From positions 151,106-215,105 of the forward strand of contig NZ_SMGG01000003.1 in the NCBI RefSeq assembly GCF_004339245.1: DNA of 64,000 nt, in the 5' to 3' direction. Positions 43,517 to 49,415 of this stretch are shown one piece after another. Position 1 is the first letter of the stretch, and every line of letters starts with the position of its first letter. The translations under genes and the position numbers were made by a program. The notes beneath the pieces were generated by a model that had not been told where the DNA came from, searched no databases, and saw only the letters and a list, made by a program, of their open reading frames with translations. The DNA comes from Seleniivibrio woodruffii (lineage in GTDB: Bacteria; Chrysiogenota; Deferribacteres; Deferribacterales; Geovibrionaceae).

Positions 43517-44101
43517 TTAAAGAGTGCCCTTTGTGGACATCACCTGATCGGACTCAATGCGCACCGCATCTTTGATGGCTCTGGCAACGCATTTGAATAT
43601 CCCCTCGATGATGTGGTGGGTGTTCCTTCCGTATCTTTTAATAATGTGCAGGTTGATGCCCGCTCTGTCCGCAAACGCCTTGAAAAACTCCTCGGTAAGC
43701 TCCGTGTCGAAATCGCCGACCTTCTCCGCAGGGATATCCGCATCGAAGTTAAGATAAGTCCTGCCCGAAAAGTCCACAGCACATTCTATGAGGGTTTCAT
43801 CCATGGGCAGCAGGAAAAAGCCGTATCTGCGGATTCCCCTTTTGTCGCCCAGAGCCTCACGGAAAGCATCGCCCAGAACAATGCCGATGTCTTCGGCTGT
43901 GTGGTGTCCGTCGATGTGCAGGTCGCCTCTGGCCTTAAGCTCAATGTCGAACCCGCCGTGTCTTGTGAAAAGCTCAAGCATGTGGTTAAGGAAACCTATC
44001 CCTGTATCAACAGAATATTTTCCGCCGCCGTCGACGTTAAGCGTAAGTGCTATTTCCGTCTCCGTGGTCTTCCTTGATATGCTTGATTTTCTCTCTGCCA
44101 C
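43517..44101 (-). CDS. hisB: Imidazoleglycerol-phosphate dehydratase HisB
   Basis: 194 residues, monofunctional. It dehydrates imidazoleglycerol phosphate using two manganese ions; ligands are in GFLNHML, DGHHTAED and NTHHIIEG. The start is taken as GTG 44101, because GAGG lies about eight bases upstream; GTG 44110 is too close to it. First gene of hisB-hisH-hisA-pgpA-cinA, divergent from the globin-like gene. Confidence 0.95.
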   Translation of the reverse strand: MAERKSSISRKTTETEIALTLNVDGGGKYSVDTGIGFLNHMLELFTRHGGFDIELKARGDLHIDGHHTAEDIGIVLGDAFREALGDKRGIRRYGFFLLPMDETLIECAVDFSGRTYLNFDADIPAEKVGDFDTELTEEFFKAFADRAGINLHIIKRYGRNTHHIIEGIFKCVARAIKDAVRIESDQVMSTKGTL

Positions 44102-44216
44102 AGCAAACACCTCGAACTTTTATTTTACTTTACTGTCTTCATATATTATCCTAACATGACGCAAAAAGAAATATCTATTGCACCCGATTTGCCTTTTATG
44201 AGAGACAGCATATAAC

Positions 44217-45107
44217 ATGAGATACCGCAAGTCGCTGACTAAAAACTATGACCTTAATGAACACGATGTAGATAATCTGCTGTTCATAAAGCCTATGATT
44301 TCACGTTACAAAGACGAATTCATCGAAGATTTCACCGAAAAGATGAAAACCTTCCCCCTGAGCGAAAAGCAGGCCGCCGCAATGGGTTCCAACATGAACA
44401 AGCTCGGCTCATGGTTCGACACACTCTTTGACGGCAATGCGGACAACGCCTATTTTGCCTTTGTAGGCAAGCTGGGCGAATCGCTTAACAAATATAAGTT
44501 CGAGCAGGAATTTATCACAGCCATGATAAGTTTCAGCAGGCTCTGGATCCATGAAAAGATATTCGGTCTTGTGGATGACGAGGTTCGCAGAAAGAAGATC
44601 CTCATTTCAATGCACAAGATGATGGACATAAACAGCGAGATTATTCTGGGTTCCTACTATGACAAGCTGGTCAGCTCGTACAACCCCGTACACAGCTACC
44701 GCAACAAAGTTGTGGACATCAGCGAAAAGTTCTCATTTTTCGTTCACACCCTTATGGTGATAACCCTCATAGGGCTTACTCTGACGGCGGGCGTTGCGTT
44801 TCTTGCGGAAACGGTACATCTATTCGGCAAAAAGCCCGACCACGCACTCATCACGGCGCTGGGTTCACTGCTTATCATCTGGGTGCTGGTGGAACTTCTG
44901 CACACCGAGATTCAGATGATAAAGGGCGGAAAGTTCAAGAACTCAATATTCATCAGCGTTGCGCTGATAGCATTCATCAGGGATCTCATGATAATCACGC
45001 TCAAACACGAAACAACCAACGTGCTCCAGCAGGGCTTCATTCTCCTTGCCATAACAGTTCTGGGTCTTGTTTACTGGCTTATTGTCCGCACCGAAAATAA
45101 CAACTAA
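44217..45107 (+). CDS. Globin-like sensor domain fused to PsiE-like membrane domain
   Basis: 296 residues. Residues about 10-150 align by eye with the sensor globin of globin-coupled sensors ([31 protein letters not shown], the closing [17 protein letters not shown]). The proximal heme histidine, expected after GK in V83-GKLGES, is G87 or its neighbours instead, so heme binding as usual is doubtful. Four hydrophobic segments follow (about 174-199, 209-228, 243-263, 270-290). The [15 protein letters not shown] and AFIRDLMII parts resemble PsiE. Function unknown; it lies 13 bases before secA. Confidence 0.65.
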
Positions 45108-45120
45108 CCGGAGTTTATTA

Positions 45121-47724
45121 ATGTTCAAATCTGTTCTGCAAAAAATCTTCGGCTCCTATGCCGAACGCTATATCAAATCCATGCAGCCTATGGTCTCTGC
45201 CGTGGCTGCCCTTGAACCTAAAATGCAGGAGCTTGGTTTCGACCAGCTGGCCGAAGCGGCTCAGATGCTCAGAGACAAGCTGAAAGAGGGAGCAACCGAG
45301 GACGAAATCCTCAACCAGACCTTCGCCCTCGTTCGTGAGGCGGGCCGCAGAACCCTCAACATGCGTCATTTCGACGTTCAGCTTATGGGCGGATATGCTC
45401 TGCACAAAGGCAAAATATCCGAGATGAGAACCGGTGAAGGTAAAACCCTCGTGGCAACCCTCGCAATGACCCTCAACGCTCTGGGCGGAAAAGGTGCGCA
45501 CCTTGTAACTGTGAACGACTACCTCGCCAGACGTGACGCACAGTGGATGAGCCCCATCTATCTGTCCCTTGGACTCACAGTGGGCATCATTAACCATGAA
45601 CGCTCATTCCTTGTGGAATGGGACGACAAAGAAGCGTTTACAACCAAACTCTCAGACGTTACACGTCAGGAGGCATACGCCGCCGACATCACATACGGAA
45701 CTAACAACGAGTTCGGTTTCGACTATCTCCGTGACAACATGAAGCCGCCCCACGAACCCACATCTCAAAGGGAACTGAACTTCGCCATTGTGGATGAGGT
45801 GGACTCCATCCTTATCGATGAGGCGAGAACACCCCTCATCATCTCCGGCCCCACAGAGAGAAGCACTGAAAAATACTACAACGTTGACGCAGTGGTCAAA
45901 AACCTGCGCATCGATGAGCACTATACAAAAGACGAAAAGAGCAGAACAGTTCAGCTCAAGGACGAGGGCATAAACGTTGTGGAACGTGAGATGAACATTG
46001 AAAACCTCTACGACATCAAATATGTCGACGTTCTGCACAACGTAAACAACTCACTGAAAGCACATGCGATCTTCAAGAAAGACGTGGACTACGTCGTTAA
46101 AGACGGCAAGGTCGTAATAGTTGACGAATTTACCGGACGTCTCCAGCCCGGCAGACGCTACTCCGACGGCATGCATCAGGCTCTGGAAGCCAAAGAGGGC
46201 GTGAATATCGAGAGCGAAAACCAGACGCTGGCATCCATCACCTATCAGAACTATTTCAGAATGTACAAGAAACTGGCAGGTATGACAGGTACGGCTCTTA
46301 CAGAGGCAAACGAGTTCATGTCCATCTATAATCTGGGCGTGGCAGTTATCCCCACCAACATGAGAATGATCCGTAACGACCATACCGACGTTATCTTCCG
46401 CACGGCGAAAGAGAAATATATCGCCATCGTGGACGAGATAGAAGAGATGAACAGGACAGGCAGACCCGTTCTGGTGGGTACAAGCTCCATCGAAAAATCC
46501 GAGCTGGTGAGCGACCTGCTCAACCGCAGAAAGATAAAGCATGAAGTGCTGAACGCAAAGAACCACGAGCGTGAAGCTGAGATCGTTAAAGACGCAGGTC
46601 TTAAAGGTGCGGTGACCATCGCAACCAACATGGCCGGACGAGGAACCGACATCAAGCTCGGCGAAGGCGTTCGTGAGCTGGGCGGTCTGCATATCATCGG
46701 TACGGACAGACACGAATCCAGACGTATCGACAATCAGCTGAGAGGCCGTGCGGGACGTCAGGGCGACCCCGGTTCATCCCGTTTCTTCGTTTCACTGGAA
46801 GACGACCTTATGCGCATCTTCGGTTCCGAAAAGATAGCGGGCATCATGCAGAAACTGGGCATGAAAGAGGGCGAATCCATCGAACACCCCATCATCAGCC
46901 GCTCCATCGAAGGTGCACAGAAGAAGGTCGAGGCTTACCACTTCGAAATCAGAAAGCACCTGCTTGACTACGACAACGTAATGAACCAGCAGAGAAACGT
47001 TATCTATACTCTGCGTAAGGATATCATTGCCGGTGAGGCTCTGGATGAGATCATCTCGGAGACCATCGACAACGTCATCGACACCATGACCGAAACCTAC
47101 GTTTCCGCCGCTGAAAAGCCCGACTACGAAGCGTTTGAAAAAGAGATTTATGAGATTTTCGACATAGAGTTCCGTTTTGACGAGGACAGAAAGAACTTCC
47201 ACAACGAGCTTGTGCGTCTGAAAGAACTTGCCGCCGGAAAACTGGCTGCGAAAAAAGAGAGCTTCGGCGACTTCTTCCCTGAGGTTGTCCGCTTCCTCTT
47301 CACAACAATCCTTGACAATAAATGGAAAGAGAACCTGCTCCAGATGGACCATCTGCGTGACTCGGTAGGTCTCAGAGGCTACGGCCAGAAAGACCCGCTG
47401 AACGAGTATAAGCGTGAGGCATATAACCTGTTCGTCGGCATGATGAACAAGGTCAACAACGAGGTTGTCAGAGTTCTGCTCCACGTTGAGCTTAACAGAC
47501 AGTCGGACATTCAGGAAGCCGAGCAGAAGCAGGAGCGTGTGCAGACCAGAGAGGAACAGAGGGACATCTTCGCAGAGCAGCCCCGTCAGCAGTCTGAGGA
47601 GAAACGCTCACCCATCAAAAGGGAGTATCCGAAGGTGGGCAGAAACGATCCCTGTCCCTGCGGCAGCGGAAAGAAATATAAAAAATGTCACGGCATCAAC
47701 GAAACAGACGCCGACGAAGATTAA
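45121..47724 (+). CDS. secA: Preprotein translocase ATPase SecA
   Basis: Motor that drives proteins through SecYEG. 867 residues, with M102-RTGEGKTL (Walker A), [20 protein letters not shown], the [12 protein letters not shown] and [12 protein letters not shown] helicase blocks, and the C-terminal zinc site [13 protein letters not shown] that contacts SecB and ribosomes. ATG 45121 follows CGGAG; the frame extends upstream into the globin-like gene without support. A terminator follows. Confidence 0.98.
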
Positions 47725-47730
47725 TACTTA

Positions 47731-47756
47731 AGGGAGCTGAAAAGCTCCCTTTTTTA
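47731..47756 (+). terminator. Intrinsic terminator of secA
   Basis: AGGGAGCT (47731-47738), GAAA loop, AGCTCCCT (47743-47750), then a T-run. The last three bases are also the stop codon of the convergent DUF262 gene. Confidence 0.92.
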
Positions 47757-49415
47757 TCTCCAAACTCCTGAATACATATTCTCAAATATTGAATTTCTGT
47801 GTTCCAATATCGCCTTATCATCCCAGTCAGTATTATTTTCAAATATTTCTTTTGTTGTAAGCAATGTTGACTTACCCAATATTGTACTTCTTTTCTTAGT
47901 ATAGTCAGCATTTCCTATTGAACTGTTAAGATCTTTATCTAATAAAACTAAATTCCCAATATTGCTTATATTTTTCGGATTAATCCCGACCCACTCACCT
48001 TTCTTTGGTTTTTCAGGGCATATATGCTCTAAGCTAATTTGCAAAAGTTTGATATTATTGTTCTGTTTGGTAGATTCAATTTTTTCTAAAACATATTGGA
48101 CTAATTTCTTTTGCTTTTGATTTTGCTTATTATAATATAGCTTTGAATCAAATTTACTGTTTAGTTCATCTTTAGTAGGAAACTTATCTTTAATTTCTTT
48201 AACTATAGCATCAATAGCGATATGTTTTTTCTCTTTCCCACTAGCATCTCTTAGAATTCTTGAATATTTAGCGTACATTATATCTAGTCCTGACGATCTA
48301 TTTGACATAATTGCATTATGAAAAAAATGATACTGTTCCATTGTTTTTAATATTTTAATCACATACTGCTGACTGATTAACTTTTCTCTGTAATCTCTTA
48401 TCAAAGTAAGTAAAAGTGCATTTGCAACTTCTATACTAAAAACATTTACAATTGTATAAATTGACTTATAAATGCTTATTTCATCTTTTTCCCAGTCACT
48501 TTCGTCTACTTTTGTCACAATATTATATATTTCAGAATCATCAATCATGTTTTTTAAAAATACTTTAATATCAGTACTTGCATTATTAACAATTTCTGCA
48601 TTAAATGCTTTATATAAATTCTTATCTGAAACTTTACTATATCTTGAAGCCCAAAAGTTATTTAAAAATTTTGCTGACTTGCCTTCTGTGTTTTCTAAAA
48701 TGATATTCCAACTTTCCTCAGGCTCATTAATATTACATTCTTTTGGATACTTCCTGAAAATATGACTTTTAATAAGGTCAAGAGTTGTAAGATCCTTACC
48801 TGTTGCGTTTAATGTTTGGAATATTTCATTAACATCTGCCCCATCGCTCACAGCTACAAATATAATCTCAACGTTAAGTAATTTATCTCTAAATTCTATT
48901 AAGCTTTTAACATCAAGCTTAGAGAATATACTCCGCATGTGAAGGTATATCTCTTTAATTCTTCTTTCTCCTGAACGTTTAGGAATAACTTCTTCTTTTT
49001 TTCCCGGAAATCTCTGAACATATTTTTGCAATAGAGGGTAAGGCATCTTATTATCTAATATTGCGTATTCTTTATTATTTTCATCTTTTTTAAATATATA
49101 GTTATTATGAATTCCTTCACTATAGTCTTTCTCATCAAGATCAGCTAAACAATCTCTAAGCGCGCTTAACATTATGGTTATCGTTGTAATACGTTGTTGG
49201 CCATCTACAACTTTAAAATCAGTACCATTATAATCCCCATCAAAAACCATATGACCAATGAAATATCCAGTTTCAAGGTTACTATTTTGAATATCATCAT
49301 AGAACTCTATTACTTCATCGATTCCCCAATCAAACTCGCGCTGATACGGTGGAATTTCAAATTTCCCCATTCCTAATATTTTTTTGACATTAAAATTTCT
49401 TGCTTCGACTTTCAT
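47754..49415 (-). CDS. DUF262/DUF1524 (GmrSD-type) HNH nuclease protein
   Basis: 553 residues. The N-terminal DUF262 has IPPYQREFDW (21-30) and the nucleotide-binding D71-GQQR-ITT. The C-terminal DUF1524-like HNH part has E463-H464, IGNLVLL with N488, and NADYTKKR. This combination occurs in type IV restriction enzymes (GmrSD, BrxU-like) that cut modified phage DNA, but also in loosely defined relatives; a defence role is inference. The gene is strikingly AT-rich (14 G/C in the 60 bases from 48121) compared with neighbours, which implies recent acquisition. It stands alone. Confidence 0.82.
   Translation of the reverse strand: MKVEARNFNVKKILGMGKFEIPPYQREFDWGIDEVIEFYDDIQNSNLETGYFIGHMVFDGDYNGTDFKVVDGQQRITTITIMLSALRDCLADLDEKDYSEGIHNNYIFKKDENNKEYAILDNKMPYPLLQKYVQRFPGKKEEVIPKRSGERRIKEIYLHMRSIFSKLDVKSLIEFRDKLLNVEIIFVAVSDGADVNEIFQTLNATGKDLTTLDLIKSHIFRKYPKECNINEPEESWNIILENTEGKSAKFLNNFWASRYSKVSDKNLYKAFNAEIVNNASTDIKVFLKNMIDDSEIYNIVTKVDESDWEKDEISIYKSIYTIVNVFSIEVANALLLTLIRDYREKLISQQYVIKILKTMEQYHFFHNAIMSNRSSGLDIMYAKYSRILRDASGKEKKHIAIDAIVKEIKDKFPTKDELNSKFDSKLYYNKQNQKQKKLVQYVLEKIESTKQNNNIKLLQISLEHICPEKPKKGEWVGINPKNISNIGNLVLLDKDLNSSIGNADYTKKRSTILGKSTLLTTKEIFENNTDWDDKAILEHRNSIFENMYSGVWR

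Follow-up and report, generated by a model that had tools for sequence, protein, structure and literature searches.

Apparent repeated loss of the proximal haem ligand in a family of sensor globins fused to a PsiE membrane domain

The window, a stretch of 64,000 nucleotides, contains a gene whose product is predicted to join a globin of the sensor type to a membrane domain of the PsiE family. The gene lies between a divergently oriented hisB-like gene and secA, the likely ATG of which is found 13 bases past the globin–PsiE stop codon. The features of the locus are as follows.

44217..45107, + strand: globin–PsiE gene, 296 aa plus stop (ORF and translation; full-length orthologues)
44244..44669, + strand: sensor-globin half, approximately residues 10–151 (Pfam PF11563, AF2 model, fold match to 2w31)
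44484..44486, + strand: codon of Leu90, the F8 position, corresponding to the proximal His93 of 2w31 (alignments)
44538..44627, + strand: G/H-corner block, residues 108–137 (invariant in 26/26 Deferribacterota members outside family f7)
44682..45104, + strand: PsiE half, residues 156–296 (Pfam PF06146, separate AF2 model, sequence comparison with PsiE of E. coli)
45121..47724, + strand: secA, the next gene (sequence and ORF; likely ATG start at 45121)
43517..44110, − strand: hisB-like gene, divergent neighbour (ORF)

Of 50 genomes examined in the phylum, 39 have a full-length open orthologue without internal stops, and the reading frame is therefore not a chance ORF, an artefact or the product of a frameshift. 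The phylum name Deferribacterota is taken from the nearest named relatives of the genome, which are Seleniivibrio and Deferribacteraceae records at 67–83% identity. In a second phylum, that of a Nitrospirae metagenome-assembled genome, 68 matches were found in 395 genomes, and 65 full-length proteins from this set were combined with the 39 from Deferribacterota to give a family alignment of 104 globin–PsiE proteins together with 2w31. The Nitrospirae-phylum proteins have the same two-domain order as the window protein and are alignable with it over the whole length, yet every one of them (65/65) has histidine at position F8, where the window protein has Leu90. An earlier note on this DNA, made from the sequence alone, had taken a haem-free or differently liganded globin sensor tied to a membrane protein next to secA to be new; the fusion as such is common in two phyla, and in one of them it always has its histidine intact. 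No plasmid match to the query was obtained with tblastn. No paper on a globin–PsiE protein was found in the open-access literature, so one may still exist. Two further PsiE-family matches, L120 and L121 (genomes G003 and G001), lie outside the fusion in frames of about 200–220 aa, and the L120 sequence, as read, is without a globin half.

The names of the neighbouring genes (secA, hisB, purH/purD, glgP and thioesterase-like) are those that we presume from their sequences. The secA gene is located 3′ of the globin–PsiE gene in all 26 loci outside family f7 (26/39 Deferribacterota members), and hisB is on the other flank in 22 of these 26. At the 13 f7 loci, without exception, the neighbours are glgP-like and thioesterase-like ORFs, and in the phylum of the Nitrospirae genome purH- and/or purD-like genes adjoin the globin–PsiE gene in 22 of 30 flanked loci (L036, L055–L083). 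The association with secA pointed out in the earlier note thus stands for the window and for much of the phylum, but as a trait of a lineage. As the neighbours are stable within clades and different between clades, secA is probably not a functional partner, and the gene context points to no clear function. Beyond secA, at 47754–49415 on the − strand, the window encodes a 553-aa protein with GKFEIPPYQREFDWG near its start, which we take to be of the DUF262 type from its general look.

The C-terminal half belongs to the PsiE family, as the earlier note had suspected, with a match to PF06146 over residues 176–293 at 69.6 bits against a Pfam cut-off of 23.9. Four long helices are present in both AF2 models, that of the whole protein and that of the PsiE half alone (built from 71 sequences, pLDDT 77.9), and their insertion in the membrane is read from the sequence. 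This half is better conserved than the globin half, and W222, E226, E231, G237 and R255 are invariant across all 104 proteins. The PsiE protein of E. coli belongs to the same Pfam family and shares the Glu of TM2 (E226), the Arg of TM3 (R255) and a few Gly, Phe, Leu and Trp positions, but is only 15% identical and is without a globin half. The charged loop at 236–241 and the C-terminus would fit a topology in which both the globin and the C-terminus are cytoplasmic. When the separate PsiE half was compared with the PDB, no fold match reached significance (best Foldseek E 0.55), and the best VIA-align Z of 8.8 is within the range common for helical bundles; VTC-complex and Orai entries among the non-significant matches are no evidence of kinship. 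In E. coli, PhoB and CRP mediate the induction of psiE (PMC4415409), and a protein less than 30% identical to PsiE is located in a stress-tolerance island (PMC8290217); in the portions of the literature available to us, no activity was found to have been assigned to PsiE.

The N-terminal half matches the Protoglobin family PF11563 over residues 11–150 (31.6 bits, Pfam cut-off 25), and its best PDB sequence match is 2w31, the globin of a globin-coupled sensor (GCS) from Geobacter sulfurreducens (phmmer E 1.5e-4). At full length, the Geobacter protein probably has transmembrane helices at its C-terminal end as well. The AF2 model of the window protein, built from 27 orthologues (mean pLDDT 76, pTM 0.51), consists of a globin, extended at its N-terminus by a further helix (residues 2–10), and then the four long helices. 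The globin-coupled-sensor pattern that had been proposed for the N-terminal 150 or so residues is recovered in the model of residues 1–155, and the structure prediction for which the earlier note had asked returned a sensor globin rather than some other fold. The predicted globin half superimposes on 2w31 with Z 19.4 and rmsd 2.2 over 149 aligned residues, and the AfGcHK structures 5ohf and 5ohe tie with 2w31 as the top fold matches; non-haem globin folds match less well (3pmc, Z 13.8; 3pmd, 13.1; 2bnl, 12.8). In the model, helix 157–202 comes directly after helix 122–155, although pLDDT falls to about 58 at residues 151–170 and the junction between the globin and TM1 is therefore unsure. The window protein thus has the predicted fold of a globin-coupled sensor and a putative C-terminal output domain, here PsiE, and is without the proximal F8 histidine.

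In the multiple alignment the window protein has Leu90 in the column of 2w31 His93, which is presumably F8 and fits the alignment as such. The absence of the proximal histidine reported in the earlier note is accordingly confirmed, the segment singled out there being the F8 segment. The globin half has just three histidines, H16, H112 and H133; none lies in helix E (50–70) or helix F (77–92) of the AF2 model, which leaves neither helix with an alternative proximal histidine. Haem in 2w31 is reported to be held by two histidines, HisE11 and HisF8, with His66 named as E11 (PMC4476040), and both columns are leucine in the window protein (Leu63 and Leu90). E11 is also variable across the Nitrospirae-phylum set (Q, V, H, I, R, among others), and is for that reason little informative. 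Within Deferribacterota, F8 is His in eight of 39 proteins, and in the remaining 31 it is Gln (15), Leu (6), Asn (3), Phe (3), Tyr (2), Ile (1) or Val (1); nine residue changes at this position are placed on the tree in Deferribacterota, and none in the Nitrospirae-phylum set. From the missing ligand, the window globin would appear to be free of haem; for some members of the family haem may have kept its importance, given the eight Deferribacterota proteins with an F8 histidine. Two other sites, residue 98 (44508–44510; H101 of 2w31) and residues 149–151 (44661–44669; E152–E154 of 2w31), are His and Glu-Glu-Glu, respectively, invariant or nearly so in the Nitrospirae-phylum set; they vary in Deferribacterota, including in members that have the F8 histidine.

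The check on orthologues suggested in the earlier note indicates that the histidine has been lost repeatedly in Deferribacterota. With the F8 columns left out of tree building, the parsimony minimum is five changes in the F8 histidine state, both on a tree of 104 rows and on one of 51 rows. When the 31 rows without histidine were forced into one clade, the log-likelihood fell by 107 (AU p 5.5e-96), and a single ancestral loss is rejected under the model used, in a test for which the program flagged long-branch joins and the group was named after the first tree had been seen. Parsimony alone does not distinguish loss from gain; loss is the natural direction, because the histidine is uniform in the Nitrospirae phylum and is kept by other sensor globins. 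Nine other Protoglobin loci were found in the phylum, of which the ninth (L126) fell below the threshold for alignment, and F8 is His in all eight that could be aligned, which makes the loss specific to the PsiE-linked globin. Together with matches to the multihaem-cytochrome family PF02335 in the window's own genome, these globins show that haem proteins are in use and rule out a general, phylum-wide abandonment of haem. Two of the eight, L051 and L052 (genomes G026 and G028, of the same genus), are globin proteins in frames of about 400 aa, encoded separately from the fusion, and both have the F8 histidine; the C-terminus of L051 looks EAL-like from its sequence.

One alternative is that the globin half serves only as a dimerization or stability fold for PsiE and senses nothing, the haem pocket having drifted because nothing depends on it. 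The range of residues at F8 (L, I, V, Q, N, F and Y), the variation in Deferribacterota at the columns of 2w31 H101 and E152–E154, and the better conservation of the PsiE half would all be expected under such an explanation. However, globin halves without the histidine are under purifying selection: their dN/dS (Nei–Gojobori) is 0.025–0.09 in the pairs where it could be computed (for example, L003–L005, 0.039; L014–L015, 0.046; L026–L027, 0.072), about as low as that of the PsiE half in most pairs. These values are rough for several distant pairs in which dS is near saturation, and two pairs were not computable; the histidine-keeping pair L018–L021 gave 0.13 for the globin half. The globin half also has invariant polar residues of its own, two histidines included, in 26/26 proteins outside f7. 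We consider a purely structural role unlikely, while giving it more weight than the other alternatives.

The residues invariant in these 26 proteins are N77, R108, H112, E113, F116, R125, K126, L129, H133, K134 and D137, and all except N77 fall within the C-terminal half of helix G and the N-terminal half of helix H. R108 (as R or K), K134 and D137 are conserved in the Nitrospirae phylum as well; the remaining eight positions (N77, H112, E113, F116, R125, K126, L129 and H133) undergo 10–25 changes there. It is possible to imagine that sensing has moved to this G/H corner, with His112, His133, E113, R125 and K126 forming a site that responds to a metal, protons or an anion and acts by way of helix H to switch PsiE, but we regard this as decidedly speculative and doubtful. 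The block is just as fixed in the Deferribacterota members that keep the F8 histidine, so that its origin predates the losses or is independent of them, and it is not a replacement tied to them in time; it may be structural or form a dimer face. Both the block and the F8 histidine are missing from the 13 f7 proteins. Mutual information between columns 112 and 133 ranks 139 of 9730 pairs, a signal confounded by the two-phylum split, and we make no claim of contact. If such a site did exist, the sensing site would have been relocated within one globin fold, with members that have the haem ligand still extant.

A further alternative, which we judge improbable, is that haem is retained through another axial ligand, such as Tyr93 (F8 +3) or a residue of the partner subunit. 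Tyrosine is found at position 93 in 15 of the 31 proteins without the histidine, compared with one of the eight that keep it. However, this link is not independent of descent (only two independent pairs with support; median p of 1 in a sign test), the 16 proteins of families f4 and f7, all without the histidine, have I, Q, G or E at 93, and further columns that are conserved in the haem-type sensor globin have changed too. That the gene is decaying and on its way out, as loss of the residue that defines haem globins might suggest, is rejected on a dN/dS far under 1, and the open full-length frames in 39 genomes and the place before secA kept in 26/26 non-f7 loci also speak against it.

Our working hypothesis, which we consider more probable than any of these alternatives, is that in the window protein a globin without haem acts as a regulatory module for the PsiE membrane domain to which it is attached, the globin probably doing a job that no longer needs haem. 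In this model a cytoplasmic sensor-type globin would be connected to PsiE by helix H, which leads into TM1. In the ancestral globin–PsiE protein the F8 histidine was very probably a haem ligand, and in the Nitrospirae-phylum relatives it still appears to be one. Several lineages of Deferribacterota, the window's included, would then have lost the haem ligand and kept the globin as a selected folded module, most likely now with a regulatory role that does not involve haem. Changes in its ligand, partner or dimer state would be relayed through helix H to TM1 and alter the activity of PsiE.

Non-haem globin sensors (RsbR, pXO1-118, pXO2-61 and MabR) are known from a few separate proteins. The window globin resembles the RsbR/pXO1-118 kind in having a predicted globin fold without the F8 histidine; the link to that kind consists of fold matches only, and the tree places the loss inside the globin–PsiE family. 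RsbR has Ala74 at F8, binds no haem and is joined to a STAS domain (PMC4476040), whereas the window globin is joined to the PsiE membrane domain; Vibrio relatives keep haem (PMC4976288). MabR is likewise without a haem-binding histidine, but is joined to GGDEF-like and DNA-binding parts (PMC11617747), and none of the four proteins is described with a membrane domain in the accessible portions of these sources. The globin–PsiE family differs from the RsbR precedent in its membrane partner, and also in that several losses fall within a single family whose inheritance is largely vertical.

Proteins that keep the haem ligand and relatives that lack it have the same architecture and, inside the phylum, for the most part the same locus, and globin sensing after haem is thereby open to paired comparison. 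The fusion also provides a handle on PsiE, which here carries its own cytoplasmic, and probably regulatory, half.
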